NCBI RefSeq assembly: GCF_900109615.1
Contig: NZ_FOIX01000004.1
Span: forward strand, 1 to 64,000
Length of the DNA stretch: 64,000 bases
Source of the DNA: Kaistella antarctica
GTDB lineage: Bacteria > Bacteroidota > Bacteroidia > Flavobacteriales > Weeksellaceae
Direction: 5' to 3'
Every line of letters starts with the position of its first letter. Position 1 is the first letter of the stretch. Both the position numbers and the translations under genes were made by a program. Positions 13,589 through 20,248 of the stretch are shown one piece after another. The notes beneath the pieces are model-generated. The model was not told where the DNA came from, did not search any database, and saw nothing but the letters and a program-made list of their open reading frames with translations.

Positions 13589-14227
13589 TCACACCGGAGA
13601 AACGCCCTCACGGTCAGGAATATTGACATCAGCGCCCGCCTCGACCAACGTCTTGATAATTTTATGTTGCGTTTCATTGACGTCACTCAAGATAACCGCC
13701 TCCATCAGCGCCGTCCAGCCCAGATTGTTAACATGATCAATGGGAAAACCTGGCGTTTTACACAGAATTTCTACCACTTCCAAATGACCTTTCTCAGCCG
13801 CCGGTATAAGTGCCGTTCCGCCGTAACGATTGAATATTTTGAAATCGGCACCGTGGCTTAGACAAGAATTTAAAAGCGGAACATTTCCATTCGCGCCGGC
13901 AAATAAAAACGGACTGTTGAGCATATCATCCTGCGCATTTACATTTGATCCGGCAGAAATTAACAAGTTGGCAATTTCATTATCAACTTGGTAAGCCGCC
14001 ACCATCAACGCGGTGCGCCCTTTTTTGTCCTTCAATTCCAGGTTGGGGTTGGTCCTCAAAATTTCAGTTACGAGGTTGACATCTCTTTTCTCAACCGCTT
14101 CTAATAAAGTAAATTTCGCACGCTCGGAGGGACTGTTCATCACGGTATTTTGTTTTTTATTGCCACAACTTTGTACCAGCAAACCGCCAATGAAAAAGAA
14201 GTAAATTATTTTAAAAAGCTTACACAT
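13589..14227 (-). CDS. Ankyrin-repeat lipoprotein, C-terminus cut by an in-frame TGA
   Basis: 212 residues from ATG 14227. The frame is open to 14347, but that extension is translated from a dispersed repeat (14286-14389) and is rejected. The N-terminus is a lipoprotein signal (KLFKIIYFFFIGGLLVQSC) with lipobox Cys. Five ankyrin units follow (for example KDKKGRTALMVAAYQVDNE, NRYGGTALIPAAEKGHLE, NNLGWTALMEAVILSD). The coding frame stops at TGA 13591-13589 in the middle of the last repeat (EGVSPV), yet the same frame continues for 21 residues of good ankyrin sequence (HAKNKSLTKIADLLLKAGA and two more) to TAA at 13525-13523. So the gene has probably lost its last half repeat by a nonsense change. 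Confidence 0.78.
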   Translation of the reverse strand: MCKLFKIIYFFFIGGLLVQSCGNKKQNTVMNSPSERAKFTLLEAVEKRDVNLVTEILRTNPNLELKDKKGRTALMVAAYQVDNEIANLLISAGSNVNAQDDMLNSPFLFAGANGNVPLLNSCLSHGADFKIFNRYGGTALIPAAEKGHLEVVEILCKTPGFPIDHVNNLGWTALMEAVILSDVNETQHKIIKTLVEAGADVNIPDREGVSPV

Positions 14228-14285
14228 TCTGGTAAGATAAAGTTCAAATCTTGAAATTACAAATTTACCGTGCGTATTTTTTTTA

Positions 14286-14389
14286 TTTGGGCGCCTATTT
14301 CCATCCTCCACTCCCACTTTTTTTATTTTCGCCGAAGCTTTCCCCACGCAAAAAATAAAAAAGAGTTCCGTTCAGGCTGGGGCGTGGGG
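14286..14389 (+). repeat. Dispersed hairpin repeat family F2, copy A
   Basis: Left arm TTTGGGCGCC, then CCATCCTCCACTCCCAC, a T-rich stem CTTTTTTTATTTT pairing with AAAATAAAAAAGAG, and the right arm GTTCCGTTCAGGC with GGGGCG. The same arms with different centres occur at 45050, 52952 (inverted) and 63087. Confidence 0.75.
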
Positions 14390-14605
14390 TTTCGCTACCA
14401 AAAAAAGTCAGCCCAAAATTAAATTCTAAAACCTGAGGATCGCTCAAAAATTATTCTTGCAAAAATCGGCCAGACTCTAATGCTAACCATATATTATGTT
14501 AATCTGATGTTAAACTGGTATTTTATCTGCGCTACTCTCTTCGTATAGTTTACCTTTAAATACCGATAAAAAATCGACAAACAAACAATTAAAAAATAGA
14601 CTAAA

Positions 14606-14920
14606 ATGGAAATCTTAATCAATACCGATCACAATATTTCAGGGAGCGCCGAAATGAGATCATACCTCACCGCAGATTTAGAAAGTTCTTTCGAAAGATT
14701 CAGCGAACACCTCACCCGACTTGAAGTAAAGTTGAGCGACGAAAACGCTGGCAAAGAAGGTGACAATGACAAAAAATGTGTCCTAGAAGCCCGCCTCAAA
14801 GGCATGCAACCCGTAGTCGTAACCGGCCAGGGCAACTCCATCGACCAATCGGTTACCGATGCCACCAACAAATTGAAAACCTCCCTGGATTCGATGATGG
14901 GCAGATTGAGAAGTTATTAA
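14606..14920 (+). CDS. HPF/RaiA-family ribosome-associated protein
   Basis: 104 residues. The sequence has the compact beta-alpha-beta-beta-beta-alpha layout of ribosome hibernation factors: MEILINTDHNISGSAEM, an amphipathic helix (LESSFERFSEHLTRLEVKLS), CVLEARLKGMQPVVVTGQG and a C-terminal helix (SVTDATNKLKTSLDSMMGRL). There is no C-terminal dimerisation domain, so it is the short type. Such proteins bind 30S subunits and reduce translation in stationary phase; this role is inferred from the family. It stands alone and is followed by a terminator at 14947. Confidence 0.72.
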   Translation: MEILINTDHNISGSAEMRSYLTADLESSFERFSEHLTRLEVKLSDENAGKEGDNDKKCVLEARLKGMQPVVVTGQGNSIDQSVTDATNKLKTSLDSMMGRLRSY

Positions 14921-14946
14921 TAGTAGTTTTTATATAATTGATATTG

Positions 14947-14973
14947 AAGACGCTCTTTTGGGGCGTCTTTTTC
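14947..14973 (+). terminator. Terminator after the HPF-like gene
   Basis: AGACGC, loop, GCGTCT followed by TTTTTCC. Confidence 0.7.
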
Positions 14974-15160
14974 CTCATTCAATATTCTTATTTTTTTTGT
15001 TCCTTTACCCTGCATTAATTAAAATAAGGAGATTTTTATTTATTTCATCGCGCATATATTATCTGTAGTAAATTTAGTTGTTGAAAACAGATGCAAAAAG
15101 GCTCTTTTAAAAGTTGACTGTGATAAAATCATAATAAGAATCAGACAAACTAGTAAGTAA

Positions 15161-15637
15161 ATGAAAATATCAAAACAATTATGTGGTGTAGCAGGTGAAT
15201 ATTATGTTGCAGCTGAAATTTCTCGGCGTGGATTTTTAGCTGCAATAACTTTAAGAAATTCGGATGGAGTGGATATTTTAGTAAGTAATATTGCAGGAAA
15301 TAATATATTTTCCATTCAAGTAAAAACCACTCAAAATAAACGAAAATGGATATTTAATAAGAAAATAGAGAATGAGAAATCAGAACACAAATATTTCGTA
15401 TTTGTAAATATTCCTGAAAATTTAGATTTCCAGCCTGAGTATTATATTATCAAATCCACTATTTTATCTACAAATATTTATAATGGTCATAGAATGTGGT
15501 TAAAACAGACTGGTAAGAACGGTCTGATTAGGAATGATTCAGATGCGAGACAGTTTGATCCCAAGTATTATGAAAAAGAAGATCTCTTAACCTGGAATTC
15601 ATTAATCGAAATAATATCACAAGACGAAAATAAATAA
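15161..15637 (+). CDS. Small PD-(D/E)XK-like nuclease-fold protein, unknown role
   Basis: 158 residues. The N-terminal part shows the pattern of the PD-(D/E)XK fold as in Holliday-junction resolvases and DUF4365-like proteins: a helix with Glu (GVAGEYYVAAEISRRGF, E13), then DGVDILVSN (D38) and IFSIQVKTTQ with Q53-x-K55. The Glu usual before x-Lys is Gln here, so activity is uncertain. It begins the AT-rich accessory stretch and is followed by a zinc-ribbon gene after 148 bases. It may belong to defence or DNA-processing functions, but that is inference from fold and location only. Confidence 0.55.
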   Translation: MKISKQLCGVAGEYYVAAEISRRGFLAAITLRNSDGVDILVSNIAGNNIFSIQVKTTQNKRKWIFNKKIENEKSEHKYFVFVNIPENLDFQPEYYIIKSTILSTNIYNGHRMWLKQTGKNGLIRNDSDARQFDPKYYEKEDLLTWNSLIEIISQDENK

Positions 15638-15785
15638 AGTATACCTATATCGAGAATAAAAAATTATCTTAAAAGTTTGAACGTAGATTTAAAAAAAATC
15701 TTTTTAAACTTGATTCAGAAAAATTTTGTAATAAATATCTTTTAGAACCTAACAGTGTTTTTACCTAAAATAACTCAAGACTAAT

Positions 15786-16646
15786 ATGACACCAGAATAT
15801 AGAATTGATACTGAAAAAAGAATAATTCATTACTTCAAATCATATAATGATAGCGAAGCTATCACAAACATCAAGTGCGAGAAAACCTTTTCAGATTTAG
15901 ATTACGATGTAAATGTTTGGAATATCAAAACAATCAAGGAAGCTTTTTGGGTAGTTGAAGGCAAAGATATTCCTATGAATATATATACTCAAAATGCATT
16001 TTATTTTTCAGCAGATGAAGCTTACTCTTTTCACATAGGTATAATTGAAAGATTATCTAAAAGCCACCAAAATAACTTTAAGCACATAATTGACGAATTA
16101 CCTTTAGATATTGAACGAATTAAATCCATTAATAGAAAACTAAATTTAGCCTCTGAAAAATTATCGCTTGATTTAGAGCCCGAAGAATTTCAAGCTGTCG
16201 GATTAATTTGTAGAGAAAGTTTGGTCGAACTATCTAAGGAACTATGTAAAAGAAATGAAGAATTAATTAAAGAAAAAGATTTTAAGGCTTCTGATTTTAA
16301 AAATGTTGCTTCCACATTCATAGATTTATATATAGATGGCTCAAAAAATTCTGCTTTGAGAAGTCATTCAAAAAAAATAGTAGACATTGCTTGGAGTTAT
16401 TGTTCTACTATTGTACACTCACAAAATAAATCTTATCCTGATGTGAAGATTGCCTTATTATTCACCTCAATGGCAGTTAGTTTATTAGAAAATCTATTTT
16501 TAAAATATATAGGATTTGATAATGAAGCTATTTGTAGCGTCTGTGGAAGTAAAAAAATCATCATCGTCCAAAAAACAGAAGACATATTTATAAAATCATG
16601 CGAATCATGTAAAAACGAAGAGGCAGTTGAACAAATTGAAGAATAA
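15786..16646 (+). CDS. Uncharacterised protein with C-terminal zinc ribbon
   Basis: 286 residues, not recognised. The first 100 residues are mixed strand/helix, and the middle is helical and charged (LNLASEKLSLDLEPEEFQAV, then a helix with ESLVELSKELCKRNEEL). The segment SYCSTIVHSQNKSYPDVKIA recalls the His-containing helical core of DUF4145-like proteins. The C-terminus carries a zinc ribbon, CSVCGSKK ... CESCK (C-x2-C, 20 residues, C-x2-C). It is co-oriented with the PD-(D/E)XK-like gene and may form a pair with it. AT-rich like the rest of the accessory stretch. Confidence 0.5.
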   Translation: MTPEYRIDTEKRIIHYFKSYNDSEAITNIKCEKTFSDLDYDVNVWNIKTIKEAFWVVEGKDIPMNIYTQNAFYFSADEAYSFHIGIIERLSKSHQNNFKHIIDELPLDIERIKSINRKLNLASEKLSLDLEPEEFQAVGLICRESLVELSKELCKRNEELIKEKDFKASDFKNVASTFIDLYIDGSKNSALRSHSKKIVDIAWSYCSTIVHSQNKSYPDVKIALLFTSMAVSLLENLFLKYIGFDNEAICSVCGSKKIIIVQKTEDIFIKSCESCKNEEAVEQIEE

Positions 16647-16710
16647 CCACTCCATTAGTTTATAATTTGCAGAATTACTAACCGCATTGGTCCACATTCA
16701 GAGGTCAATT

Positions 16711-16795
16711 TACAACTCTTTAATCCGCTCGACCTTTTTCTGCCAACTCAGCGCGCGCTGCTTTTTCAGCTTTGGTATCAAAAGGAATATTCAAA
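16711..16795 (-). pseudogene. Decayed copy of the neighbouring HTH gene's C-terminus
   Basis: Read on the minus strand this gives NIPFDTKAEKAARAELAEK, which matches NIPFETKVEKELRAELVEK near the C-terminus of the HTH gene at 16933-17295. At the nucleotide level the match runs over about 75 bases (CCAACTCAGCGCGCG against CCAACTCGGCGCGCA; TATCAAAAGGAATATTC against TTTCAAAAGGAATATTC), with a one-base insertion shifting the frame near its end. No start or HTH part is left. It is a remnant of a tandem duplicate. Confidence 0.65.
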
Positions 16796-16845
16796 AATTA
16801 AGAGTAAGTATGTTTTCTTGAAAGTACATTTCTTATCAACCACTC

Positions 16846-16898
16846 ATTTGTCATTCCGTAGGAATCTCAGCAGTTCAGATTCCTACGGAATGACAAAT
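16846..16898. repeat. Perfect inverted repeat with 22-bp arms
   Basis: Arms at 16846-16867 and 16877-16898 are exact complements (they contain TCATTCCGTAGGAATCT) around a 9-base loop. It lies between the decayed fragment and the HTH gene. It would form a very stable stem in RNA from either strand, but there is no adjacent T-run. Similar CATTCCGTAGGAATC elements are common intergenic repeats in flavobacteria. Confidence 0.7.
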
Positions 16899-16932
16899 AC
16901 CGTTTCCACCATTCGTGCATTTGGTTTTAAAA

Positions 16933-17295
16933 TCACTTCTCCACAATCCTCTTATAAACCCCAAGCTCAATTTCCATCGTTTTAATCAGCTCCTCTTTTT
17001 CTACCAACTCGGCGCGCAACTCTTTTTCAACTTTGGTTTCAAAAGGAATATTCAGATGTTCGCCAATGGCCATCACCAGATTAAATTTCATGGCCTGACT
17101 CAAGCGCCACAAAATGCCAAACTGCATCGAGCGCTTTTTGAAATATTGATTAAGTGTCGTGGGCAGAATTTGTAAAGTATCTGCAATATCCTTTTTTTTC
17201 AACTGAAATTCCAAAATATACCAGTGCACGAAATTGCCTAAATCGGGATGATCATTCTCCCCTTTGGCCAAATATTTTTGTTCTCTTCCCATCAC
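16933..17295 (-). CDS. Small helix-turn-helix DNA-binding protein
   Basis: 120 residues. The N-terminal two thirds look like an XRE-type or related HTH (FQLKKKDIADTLQILPTTL, then NQYFKKRSMQFGILWRLSQA). The C-terminus is a charged helix likely to form a coiled coil (EKELRAELVEKEELIKTMEI). It is transcribed away from the tandem 22-bp array, whose first unit starts 102 bases upstream of its ATG. A broken copy of its 3' end lies just downstream. It may be a regulator that binds the array; that link is inferred from position only. Confidence 0.6.
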   Translation of the reverse strand: MMGREQKYLAKGENDHPDLGNFVHWYILEFQLKKKDIADTLQILPTTLNQYFKKRSMQFGILWRLSQAMKFNLVMAIGEHLNIPFETKVEKELRAELVEKEELIKTMEIELGVYKRIVEK

Positions 17296-17396
17296 TTTGT
17301 GTTTTTATGATAACTCAAATGTAAGACATTTTAGGAAAAAATCAGCTCAACTTAAGCGCTAATTAGATAAGCTTCAACGAAGTAGGTTATTTGTTT

Positions 17397-17660
17397 GAAC
17401 CAATAAAGGTGGTAGCTTGAACCAGTAAAGGTGGTATCTTGAACCAATAAAATTACTTGATTGAACCAATAGACTTACCTAATTGAACCAATAAAATTAG
17501 TAGCCTGAACCAATTAGAGTAGTTGCTTGAACCAATAAACTTACTTAATTGAACCAATAATGGTGGTAACTTGAACCAATAGACTTACTTGATTGAACCA
17601 ATAAAGGCAGTAGCTTGAACCAATAGACTTACTTGACTGAACCAATAGTAGCATCTGATT
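17397..17660. repeat. Twelve-copy 22-bp tandem array with two alternating unit types
   Basis: Twelve head-to-tail units of exactly 22 bases start at 17397 and each 22 bases to 17639. Every unit starts with GAACCA and nearly all with GAACCAATA; the 13-base tail falls into two types: a (AAGGTGGTAGCTT-like: units 1, 2, 8, 10; weaker in 5, 6) and b (GACTTACTTGATT-like: units 3, 4, 7, 9, 11). From unit 7 on they alternate b-a-b-a-b, giving a 44-base higher-order period. The unit length is not a multiple of three, so it does not encode a peptide repeat. There are no unique spacers, so it is not CRISPR. Confidence 0.9.
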
Positions 17661-17702
17661 CAATTAATTAGAAACCTAGACCTCACCAACCCTGAATTCT
17701 TT

Positions 17703-17736
17703 CCAAAAAAAAGCGCCCCATAGAAGGAGCGCTTTG
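17703..17736 (-). terminator. Terminator of the 163-residue gene
   Basis: On the minus strand AAAGCGC, loop, GCGCTTT running into a T-tract of eight. It lies downstream of the gene ending at 17802. Confidence 0.8.
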
Positions 17737-17742
17737 TAAAAA

Positions 17743-17771
17743 CATTGCCAAAGCCTACGACTTTGGCAATG
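17743..17771. repeat. Inverted repeat next to the terminator
   Basis: CATTGCCAAAG (17743-17753), 7-base loop, CTTTGGCAATG (17761-17771): perfect 11-bp arms. It sits between the stop of the 163-residue gene and its terminator and may stabilise the mRNA 3' end. Confidence 0.65.
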
Positions 17772-17801
17772 ATGATCAAGATAAATGTCGACAGAAATTT
17801 G

Positions 17802-18293
17802 CTACACTGGATTTTTTGGGAGCGTGTTCGGCGTATTTCCCTGCGAGCTAAATCGCTCGCGAAGCTGCGCCACAATTGCATCTGCCCCTGGAATCCCGGA
17901 ATCGGCTGCGGCTCCAAATAATTTGTAAAGCATCAGCGCTGAACTGTAAGATTCGCTCCCCGCCAGGAGTTGGGTATCATCTAATTTTTCCACCGTTTGT
18001 TTCAGCATAGCGATCAGCTCATCCAGCTGATTAAAAAGCGCCAGGTCGGTTTGCATGTCACTCACTGAGAGAAAATTCGGCAACATACCGGCATTATTAA
18101 CCCCGGCGTTGATGGCGTCTTCCGTGAAAACTTTGTTATCTACGTTAATAGCGGGCAGCAAAATTCGCTCTTCTGTGGTTAATCCGATAAGAAACGGAAG
18201 ATTGGTGTCGATTGTTGTCAGCGCAGCTTTCACCGCGGCGATCTGAGCCGCCGTCGCTACAACATTGAGTCTGTTGTTTGTTAAATTTGCCAT
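17802..18293 (-). CDS. Conserved-looking hypothetical protein, 163 residues
   Basis: Not recognised. The sequence is alanine-rich and mostly helical (VVATAAQIAAVKAALTTID; ALFNQLDELIAMLKQTVEKL; ALMLYKLFGAAADSGIPGA), with no signal peptide, membrane segment or catalytic motif. The composition and base content are closer to the core genes than to the AT-rich genes on either side. It has its own terminator (17703-17736). It is probably a cytoplasmic structural or capsule-like helical protein, but no function can be assigned. Confidence 0.6.
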   Translation of the reverse strand: MANLTNNRLNVVATAAQIAAVKAALTTIDTNLPFLIGLTTEERILLPAINVDNKVFTEDAINAGVNNAGMLPNFLSVSDMQTDLALFNQLDELIAMLKQTVEKLDDTQLLAGSESYSSALMLYKLFGAAADSGIPGADAIVAQLRERFSSQGNTPNTLPKNPV

Positions 18294-18578
18294 AATTTGT
18301 GTTTTTTAGGCGTTAATGTCCTATAAAATTACACAATTGTTGCGGATAATATAAAATATTTACCAACTTTTCACATACTGCAATCTAATATTTTCTACAA
18401 ACAATGATCAGGTAAACTGAGTAACTATTTTAAGAAATTAAAAAAATATTTTTTTAATAAAACATCTTTTTATTCATTTTTTAACAATTTCGTATCGTTC
18501 GCAAATAATTTATTAATCACATTATATAAATTATGCGTATTTTTAACTTAGTAATTACATCACTACATTTAATAAATT
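18294..18578. other. AT-rich gap between divergent genes
   Basis: 285 bases between the 163-residue gene (leftward) and the next pair (rightward), so it should hold two promoters. Possible -7 variants are seen, for example TACATTTA just before ATG 18579. Nothing else recognised. Confidence 0.4.
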
Positions 18579-18962
18579 ATGGAAAAAAAAGATTTTGTTA
18601 AAAACCTCACATATCTCCAGTCTGCAACTAGTTTGACGGGAAAAAAATACAGATTAGATAAAATATTTGATGGCAAAATATACTTTACACGAGAAAATAA
18701 AAGTCAGTCTGAAACAATTTACATTTCAGAATTATTTGAATTATTTACAAAAGAAAGAGTACTAAACACCACAGTTGCAAAATCCTATATTTCAGGCAGA
18801 GTTCAGTCACCTGCTGTTGCTATATTAAACGAATTGAAATTAAAACAAAATAATTATCTCACTACTGTTTCTGCTTTAGCAGATGAAAAAGAAAAAATCT
18901 TTAAAAATGAAACAGCGAAGAAATCTGCAAATAATTTAAAAGACGAAACTAGATTTTTGTAG
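18579..18962 (+). CDS. Uncharacterised protein, first gene of an accessory pair
   Basis: 127 residues, not recognised. It has an N-terminal strand-rich part (LTGKKYRLDKIFDGKIYFTR), a central segment (ETIYISELFELFTKE, then TTVAKSYISGRVQSPAVAIL) that could be a small DNA- or protein-binding domain, and a lysine-rich C-terminus. The next gene starts two bases after its stop, so they are almost certainly one transcript. High AT content and position in the accessory stretch suggest acquired DNA. A toxin-antitoxin or nuclease-helper pair is possible, without direct evidence. Confidence 0.6.
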   Translation: MEKKDFVKNLTYLQSATSLTGKKYRLDKIFDGKIYFTRENKSQSETIYISELFELFTKERVLNTTVAKSYISGRVQSPAVAILNELKLKQNNYLTTVSALADEKEKIFKNETAKKSANNLKDETRFL

Positions 18963-18964
18963 CA

Positions 18965-19690
18965 ATGTCAGAACTTATAGGAGAAGATTATTTACTTTCT
19001 AAAAGTATTAACAAACCAATAGATTCATCACATTTCTTTTTATCAAATAATTTTGAAATGTATAAGTTCCCGGATGTGGTAAATTCAAGTTATCTGAAAA
19101 TACTATCAGATTTGAAATCAAACAAACAATTTAGTTCTGATAGCTTAGCTCATTTCATAGATGGTGCAATTATGAACCATCCGATTTTAAAAAGTAGAAT
19201 TGTTGAATTTGATGAAGAACAACATTTCACACCAGCAAGATTAAGTACAATAAAACACCTTAAAAAAATATTACCTGATAACTATTTTTCGACTGTCAGC
19301 AATATTTGTAATGACAAAACCTACCTCAATAATCATGTTTTGAAAAAACATCGGATGAAAAACAAAATAGAAAATTTACCAAAATCATTTTCTGATTTCA
19401 TTGAGTGGCTGGAGCAATCAGACGAAAAATTATCAGGATACATTTGTGAGAAAAATGGTTTTAGATTTTTAGGTGGACGTATGGCGCAGAGAGCATATTA
19501 TGATTGCTTACGCGACACGGCCCATCTTTCTGAAAAAAATAAAGATTTAGAAAGTCCATTAAGATTTGCAAAAAAAAGTTTTGAGGATATAGAAAAAATT
19601 AGTTTTAATAAGATTGAAAATAAAAGAATTAAAGAAATAATTGTGGAAATTCTACAAACTGATTATCAACTATCAATTGCTAGTACGTAA
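18965..19690 (+). CDS. Uncharacterised protein, second gene of an accessory pair
   Basis: 241 residues, not recognised. Mostly helical, with a basic middle section (LNNHVLKKHRMKNKIENLPK) and the notable segment GFRFLGGRMAQRAYYDCLRD. No signal peptide, membrane helix or zinc motif. It is tightly coupled to the 127-residue gene. It ends before a bidirectional terminator at 19746 shared with the convergent J-KTSC gene. No function is assigned. Confidence 0.6.
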   Translation: MSELIGEDYLLSKSINKPIDSSHFFLSNNFEMYKFPDVVNSSYLKILSDLKSNKQFSSDSLAHFIDGAIMNHPILKSRIVEFDEEQHFTPARLSTIKHLKKILPDNYFSTVSNICNDKTYLNNHVLKKHRMKNKIENLPKSFSDFIEWLEQSDEKLSGYICEKNGFRFLGGRMAQRAYYDCLRDTAHLSEKNKDLESPLRFAKKSFEDIEKISFNKIENKRIKEIIVEILQTDYQLSIAST

Positions 19691-19745
19691 ATTAGTTCCA
19701 AAAGTTTTTTTGATTTAAAATCGATTTTCACGAAATATTACCATC

Positions 19746-19780
19746 AAAAAAGCACAACCTCATCCAAGATTGTGCTTTTT
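19746..19780. terminator. Bidirectional terminator
   Basis: AAAAAGCACAA, loop, TTGTGCTTTTT. It separates the accessory pair (plus strand) from the J-KTSC gene (minus strand), and both read into a T-run. Confidence 0.8.
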
Positions 19781-19801
19781 AAATTGTAGAACAACGGGAA
19801 A

Positions 19802-20248
19802 TTAATCCTCCATTGCTTCCCCATTTTTTCTGTAGATGTAGCTTCCGTAAATGTGTCTACGGGCAAAGCGGCTCGGCGAATCAGCGTTGACCATTTTGAT
19901 GTAGGTATTACGGGGAACACCGATGTATTCGTACATTTTACCATTCAAATGCTGCACTTTCAAGATTTGTTTTTCGTAATCGAAATCCTGAATGTTTGAT
20001 TTTGAAATAGTCTCGGTATATTCTTCTTTGTATTTTGCCTGCGTTTCTGGGTTGATGCTCACCAAAAAATGGTAGGCTTCAATCACAGACTTGCTTTTTT
20101 CTTCGGCTTCCAGTTTTGCCGCATCGTCGTTGACAAATTTATCAGGATGCGCATCTTTCATCGTATTCCGGTAAATGGATTTTAAATCTTTTAAAGTAGC
20201 GGTTTTATCAACCCCAAGAAGCTTTCTGTGCTCACCAACTCTTTTCAT
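19802..20248 (-). CDS. J-domain protein with C-terminal KTSC domain
   Basis: 148 residues. Residues 7-70 are a J domain with the HPD signature (YRNTMKDAHPDKF), which in other proteins stimulates Hsp70/DnaK ATPase. Residues about 91-143 are a KTSC domain (YEKQILKVQHLNGKMYEYI, VPRNTYIKMVNADSPSRFA, RHIYGSYIYRK), a short fold often found alone or at the end of lysyl-tRNA synthetases and of unknown chemistry. The combination would bring DnaK to whatever the KTSC domain binds. Single gene. Confidence 0.8.
   Translation of the reverse strand: MKRVGEHRKLLGVDKTATLKDLKSIYRNTMKDAHPDKFVNDDAAKLEAEEKSKSVIEAYHFLVSINPETQAKYKEEYTETISKSNIQDFDYEKQILKVQHLNGKMYEYIGVPRNTYIKMVNADSPSRFARRHIYGSYIYRKNGEAMED

Follow-up and report, generated by a model that had tools for sequence, protein, structure and literature searches.

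Bacterial genomes contain tandem repeats of 20 to 23 nucleotides with a constant unit size, a variable sequence, and a short conserved core. These repeats comprise a minimum of four units, are mostly noncoding, and are called enigmatic in the accessible part of one account (PMC8161180); they are also treated in the available portion of another (PMC6749651). Nucleoid proteins or small RNAs are the ideas offered for them, and the accessible text of that first account does not use the terms "helix-turn-helix," "transcription factor," or "Bacteroidetes" (PMC8161180).

Protein systems on plasmids provide a second point of comparison. KfrA regulates its own expression, assembles into filaments, and is partnered by the helical protein KfrC (PMC8124265). 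The stbDRs of StbA are plasmid-borne 9-bp repeats spaced by 2 bp, as given in the accessible part of PMC3098194. KfrA/KfrC and StbA are the nearest working analogues of the system described here; they are plasmid-borne and have a maintenance role, whereas in the present system homologues lie on multi-megabase contigs (single contigs of 3.9–5.4 Mb in genomes G363, G464, and G521), and the units measure 21 or 22 bp rather than 9 bp with 2-bp spacing. The Par system of plasmid pSK1 is grouped with KfrA and StbA. C-proteins, in turn, act at a few short dyad operators at their own promoters, beside restriction-modification genes. C.Esp1396I and Cro/C1-type autoregulators have a fold like that of the helix-turn-helix (HTH) protein discussed below (Z about 8 over about 70 residues), but C-proteins have few operators, whereas the arrays here hold 4–20 phased units.

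We analyzed a 64,000-nucleotide stretch of Kaistella antarctica (the window; positions 1 to 64,000 of contig NZ_FOIX01000004.1, assembly GCF_900109615.1), where a 22-bp tandem array lies beside a small HTH gene. We propose, with a probability of about 75%, that the adjacent HTH protein binds the array, which would be a homotypic row of phased dimer sites abutting the promoter of its gene. The new element is a specific protein family that is tied to arrays of the 20–23-nt type by position, spacing, and co-variation, which opens their function to direct tests with a single protein and a single DNA fragment. The family is thereby a candidate partner for these enigmatic repeats; a 2020 Journal of Bacteriology paper on them reportedly contains a statement on 22 and 44 nt and suggests undescribed transcription factors. 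Our literature search, in which subscription journals were thinly covered, found no report of an HTH-linked 21/22-bp array in these bacteria.

The locus and its array

The array occupies 17397..17660 on the forward strand and consists of 12 contiguous units of exactly 22 bp, each made of GAACCAATA and a 13-base tail. All begin with GAACCA, as the initial annotation had stated. Unit positions 1–6, 8, and 22 are invariant, and positions 7 and 9 are kept in 11 of the 12 units. The tails fall into two classes told by unit positions 15–17, which read GGT or AGT in units 1, 2, 5, 6, 8, and 10 and ACT or ACC in units 3, 4, 7, 9, and 11; unit 12 has ATC. The classes alternate strictly from unit 6 to unit 11, in keeping with the alternation first noticed in the second half of the array, and the 44-base period claimed at the same time is borne out by Tandem Repeats Finder (TRF) scores of 259 at 44 bp and 259 at 66 bp vs. 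187 at 22 bp. Mean mismatches are likewise 5.5 between units two apart vs. 6.5 between adjacent units.

In the direction of transcription, the locus comprises a gene for a 163-aa protein (17802..18293, minus strand), its terminator-like hairpins, the array, a possible promoter, and the HTH gene. The scan placed two such hairpins at 17710..17735 and 17743..17771, both on the minus strand, in a region where 3 were found vs. 1.6 expected; the array thus ends before the terminator of its neighbor, as had been read at the outset. The HTH gene (16933..17295, minus strand) reads away from the array and encodes 119–120 residues, depending on whether it begins at the ATG at 17292 or the GTG at 17295; the array lies 102–105 bp from these starts, in agreement with the 102 bases given earlier. 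Between the two, the sequence TACATTTG (17316..17323, minus strand; −31 from the ATG) is a possible promoter box of the HTH gene, as it fits TAnnTTTG, which we take to be the consensus of the Bacteroidetes −7 box. Upstream of 75 HTH homologues, 15 of the 25 such boxes found within 200 bp lie at −40 to −21; this clustering near −30 is all that stands out, since boxes within 130 bp show no overall excess (21/75 upstream vs. 23/75 downstream). A sigma-70 scan gave 5 sites vs. 3.9 expected, and we place no weight on it.

The window array is noncoding, has a period within 20–23 nt, and has at least four units; comparison of related loci shows a constant unit size and a sequence that is not conserved between species or families. 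It therefore resembles the repeats of Subirana and Messeguer, which also have a constant size and a period of about two helical turns. The initial statement that no element of this form is described was too strong, because the 20–23-nt repeats are described, with function and partner given as unknown in the accessible text (PMC8161180); the present array differs from them in having a linked, co-varying HTH family.

Some other identities were rejected. The units are contiguous, their tails belong to two related classes, and no cas family occurs among 8 nearby proteins scanned, which sets the array apart from CRISPR. Plasmid iterons were set aside because no Rep family was found among the 8 proteins scanned in 14.6–20.2 kb. 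A plasmid or phage origin was likewise discarded: comparison of the window proteins with plasmids and phages found no homologue, and the window sits on a 623-kb contig of a 3.1-Mb genome in six contigs.

The helix-turn-helix protein and its homologues

An AlphaFold model of the HTH protein (15 sequences; pLDDT 79, pTM 0.48) has five helices plus a long C-terminal helix. Structure comparison matches residues 11–82 to Cro/C1-type (XRE) and C-protein chains, including C.Esp1396I; the top matches have Z about 8, rmsd 2.4–3.4, and 70–75 aligned residues, where Z under 8 can reflect a common arrangement, and the Foldseek E-values, taken alone, are weak (0.4 and above). The model thus indicates a lambda-repressor-like (Cro/C1-type) domain. 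The window protein matched no Pfam family, and two homologues pass Pfam cut-offs, L011 for HTH_26 and L024 for HTH_3 and HTH_26.

A protein search found homologues in 10 of 60 genomes. Profile searches found them in 18 of 395 genomes from the order and in 12 of 395 from the phylum, all three counts including the window genome, and also in 31 of 299 Flavobacterium genomes. A named collection holds 32 HTH loci in Kaistella, Chryseobacterium, Flavobacterium, and some metagenome-assembled genomes, two of them titled Paludibacter. Occurrence is sporadic, with up to seven paralogues in one genome.

Linkage of 21- and 22-bp arrays to the helix-turn-helix family

Homologues were collected by protein only; the window's own locus is the sole one chosen for its array. 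After deduplication, 94 hits yielded 75 intact homologues with enough upstream sequence, and 19 were dropped for a score under 70, a protein under 100 aa, or less than 300 bp upstream. For each gene, we scanned the 500 bp upstream and recorded which period from 12 to 40 bp repeats most strongly. This period is 21 in 39 homologues and 22 in 27, that is, 66/75, compared with 5/74 downstream of the same genes and 4/74 upstream of other genes at the same loci. The contrast persists among representatives of 70%-identity clusters (32/40 upstream vs. 1/39 downstream) and with TRF (54/75 vs. 3/74). The association of array and HTH gene, which the initial annotation had asked to see in related strains, is thus kept, and the neutral minisatellite foreseen there as the alternative outcome is disfavored by it.

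In 63 of the 75 homologues, the upstream 21/22 score was reached by none of 100 shuffles. Across the 66 arrays, the median number of units is 9.65 (range 4.4–19.9), and the median distance from array end to start codon is 41 bp. Four of them are weaker: the scores of L010, L101, L016, and L034 were reached by 1, 2, 4, and 7 of 100 shuffles, and the best repeat stretches of L016 and L034 lie 392 and 349 bp upstream. Nine homologues have no top 21/22 lag; when lags up to 90 were considered post hoc, seven of these had 41–43 or 65 bp (or about twice 42) in first or second place. The other two are L056, where 22 bp ranks third behind 14 and 28, and L109, which has no repeat signal. Repeats of 14-bp period (also 21 or 28) occur upstream of L056 and downstream of L063, L114, and L034, and are distinct from the 21/22-bp arrays. 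At two loci with broken HTH genes, L013 (in-frame stop) and L019 (split between frames), the upstream 21-bp array is still present.

Dyads within the units

Dyad symmetry was detected in 40 of the 66 arrays at p ≤ 0.05 and in 27 at p ≤ 0.01 (200 column permutations each). In the window's branch, several array consensus sequences read GGT-N7-ACC with AT-rich flanks, and since the unit is 22 bp, GGT and ACC alternate at about one helical turn. The window array has an ACC half-site in every unit and a GGT-like second half-site in 6 units; ACT or ACC replaces GGT in 5 units, and unit 12 is degenerate. We read the two unit types as probable full-dyad and half-dyad sites, and such a mixture could account for the nonsignificant p of 0.545 that the window array gives in its own dyad test.

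Co-variation of arrays with the recognition helix

The period is far more stable than the letters. It is identical in all homologue pairs with at least 50% protein identity and in 91% of pairs at 40–50%. Median array similarity is 0.91 above 90% protein identity, 0.71 at 70–80%, and 0.43 at 60–70%, the last being the median of column-permuted controls; the relation is not smooth, with 0.53 at 40–60% vs. 0.43 at 60–70%. Two types of Flavobacterium homologue, represented by L059 and L139, are 68% identical and have an array similarity of 0.40. Several array families of one repeat size can coexist within single Flavobacterium genomes, and in the genome with seven paralogues, six of which have arrays, 12 of 15 array pairs score 0.25–0.56 and three score 0.71–0.90. 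Such sets of paralogues, many with unlike arrays, are a natural helix-operator set for the study of change in HTH specificity.

Among proteins 55–90% identical (209 pairs), array similarity follows recognition-helix identity with a rho of 0.83, compared with 0.57–0.69 for most of the first 36 residues and −0.22 to 0.03 for the C-terminal half. The pairs are not independent, and the helix contrast is significant only among these moderately similar proteins: after dereplication (96 pairs) it stands at 0.81 vs. 0.04 for the C-terminal half (Mantel p of the difference 0.0005), and without the LVTKADVAR group at 0.74 vs. 0.31 (p 0.001). Over 40–90% identity the helix reaches 0.44 vs. 0.33 for the C-terminus (p 0.12), or 0.44 vs. 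0.48 without the LVTKADVAR group (p 0.68); over 20–90% the values are 0.13 vs. 0.09 (p 0.27), and in the 21-bp class alone 0.11 vs. 0.11 (p 0.48).

The 163-residue protein family

The 163-aa protein belongs to what we call the "MANL" family and is tied to 21/22-bp arrays across Bacteroidota, which gives this family its first context. Its model consists of helices only, one of them 55 residues long (pLDDT 84.5). Fold searches with the model returned no recognized fold, although absent or weak matches do not establish that a fold is new, and a viral_contigs scan with the family found no relative. Homologues occur in 13 of 40 genomes and in 26 of 296 genomes of the phylum, the window genome included in both. 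Among HTH loci of the 22-bp class, 21 of 27 have the gene upstream of the array; in the 21-bp class, 7 of 39 carry it.

At 45 distinct loci of the 163-aa family, the top period within 500 bp is 21/22 downstream in 34 and upstream in 7. An HTH homologue lies within the stretch at only 4 of the 45, and 30 of the 41 HTH-less loci still have an array downstream, so some arrays need another binder. These HTH-less arrays often carry a GGTT-AACC-like dyad in relatives of Kaistella and other sequences in other families. At 26 HTH-less loci with arrays (108 pairs), array similarity rises with 163-aa protein identity, with the highest rho (0.54–0.61) at alignment columns of about 56–84 and 0.51 at the C-terminus; because this co-variation is moderate and broad, we claim no binder for these arrays.

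Where both proteins are encoded (26 loci, 68 pairs at 55% identity or more), the array correlates with the HTH domain at 0.86 and with the 163-aa protein at 0.41 (p 0.0015). Loci L141 and L094 separate the two: the C-terminal parts of their HTH proteins are 81% and their 163-aa proteins 87% identical, their HTH domains are 48% identical, and their arrays are unrelated, with a similarity of 0.28. This would be the expected outcome if the HTH domain reads the array.

At loci L155–L170, in the window's genus, the genes past the HTH-less arrays differ from locus to locus, with methylase-like and RelE/ParD-like ones among them (by eye), which suggests that the arrays border variable regions.

Remote arrays

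The window genome (G000) has one array of the window core, at the HTH gene, and the congeneric G010 likewise; further sites of the core in the window genome are stray, at control level, and none is arrayed. Across nine genomes with window-class HTH genes, the pattern ACCAATA-N15-ACCAATA has 98 matches vs. 1 in the reversed control. Ten arrays of the same core, with a period of about 22 bp, lie away from HTH genes in seven Flavobacterium genomes (L201–L203, first found by a longer pattern, and L209–L215). Five of the eight places given by the longer pattern (L204–L208) are single sites within open reading frames and not arrays. The count leaves aside four further places: G464:C1:2616294, G445:C93:12897, and G521:C1:3404067, with one match each, and G445:C134, where three matches adjoin a truncated HTH hit.

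The 3.0–3.3-kb stretches around the remote arrays contain no gene of the HTH or 163-aa family at E ≤ 0.01; that of L211 holds a short XRE-like gene of another kind (by eye). Neighbors recur: L201, L209, and L211 adjoin the same gene pair (256–257 and 173 aa, exporter-like by eye), L202 and L210 adjoin a phytase-like gene, and L203 and L213 adjoin the same glycosidase-like gene. As these arrays share the core and lie far from family HTH genes, the HTH protein may act at several arrays, remote ones included, in some Flavobacterium genomes. Both the remote arrays and the link to the 163-aa family were absent from the initial annotation, as each needed other genomes to be seen.

Proposed mechanism and alternative explanations

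Linkage and period, the dyads of many arrays, the co-variation at moderate protein similarity, and the remote arrays are read directly from sequence; binding, dimer contacts, oligomerization, the sign of regulation, and any architectural role are inferred. Each 22-bp unit would hold one dyad, formed by the ACC half-site and, where complete, GGT about one turn away. On one face of the DNA, HTH dimers would occupy dyad after dyad at intervals of two helical turns, and neighboring dimers would touch and assemble cooperatively along the array. Occupancy of the array would set expression of the HTH gene; autoregulation would be the first consequence, because the HTH promoter lies immediately beyond the end of the array. 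The operator cluster named among the possible roles in the initial annotation is thereby strongly supported: arrays are linked to the HTH family, keep a 21/22-bp period, and co-vary with the recognition helix. More broadly, we tentatively suggest, while thinking it somewhat less probable than not, that chromosomal small HTH proteins may form matched pairs with their own phased arrays that co-evolve with the recognition helix, often with a helical partner and dispersed arrays, and that the resulting nucleoprotein bodies may regulate or organize the chromosome, this being the purpose of at least part of the 20–23-nt bacterial satellites.

An unlikely but serious alternative gives the HTH protein a primary role in chromosomal architecture or segregation, in which it would coat its own and remote arrays and bridge or anchor DNA in the manner of KfrA, StbA, and pSK1 Par, with autoregulation secondary. 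The long C-terminal helix beside the HTH, the 4.4–19.9 units per locus, and the remote arrays, which recur at equivalent places with no HTH gene of the family beside them, all fit such a role, and the helical partner gene recalls KfrC with KfrA in the accessible part of PMC8124265. Against it, G000 and G010 each have only one such array, a genome can hold up to seven paralogues with 12 of 15 array pairs unlike (0.25–0.56), occurrence is sporadic, and the window proteins have no plasmid or phage homologue. More doubtful than an architectural role is a scheme in which the arrays' true partner is the 163-aa protein, alone or in a complex, and one branch gained the HTH gene later. The position of arrays downstream of the 163-aa gene (34/45 vs. 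7/45 upstream), the HTH homologue at only 4 of those 45 loci, and the co-variation at HTH-less arrays (rho 0.54–0.61) are what this reading explains; yet the array tracks the HTH domain more closely where both genes are present (L141 and L094, with 163-aa proteins 87% identical and array similarity 0.28), an array stands without a 163-aa gene in the stretch at 32 of the 39 HTH loci in the 21-bp class, and the 163-aa model has no recognized fold.

Transcription of the array as a structured or small RNA, an idea put forward for other tandem repeats in the accessible text of PMC8161180, is very improbable here. Folding is no better than in shuffles for either strand (z 1.0 and −0.57), so that a structured RNA, one form of the transcribed array suggested in the initial annotation, is not supported. 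Positions 14000–20000 contain no Rfam match at gathering thresholds, and the array follows the 163-aa gene's terminator-like hairpins. We give even less credence to a neutral minisatellite that grew by slippage beside the gene by chance. Although the higher-order periods of 44 and 66 bp fit duplication of multimers and unit sequences do turn over between loci, the linkage (66/75 vs. 5/74), the near-fixed 21/22 period, and the co-variation with the recognition helix argue together that the array is not of this kind. The preferred reading thus remains a row of dimer sites for the adjacent HTH protein.

Neighboring genes and minor features

Protein scans found no restriction-modification gene adjoining the window HTH gene, and defense-system models did not match the HTH or 163-aa proteins at E ≤ 0.1. 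A 158-aa protein at 15161–15637 weakly matches PADLOC HamA (DUF1837) models (E about 0.0015). Two adjacent genes of 127 and 241 aa (18579–19690), without a match in Pfam or PADLOC, separate the 163-aa gene from a DnaJ-KTSC gene (19802–20248). At locus L154 of G010, a DnaJ-KTSC-like gene adjoins the 163-aa gene without this pair, which points to a likely insertion in the window or a loss in G010.

Beyond the stop codon of the HTH gene, positions 16702–16793 carry a decayed partial duplicate of that gene, whose counterpart starts at 16964 (local alignment score 101 vs. at most 31 in 100 shuffles). Also downstream of the HTH gene, an inverted repeat with TTTGTCATTCCGTAGGAATCT arms spans 16847–16897; it is perhaps a small dispersed element, because the window genome has a second pair of these arms at G000:C2:615528-615593 (up to 1 mismatch).
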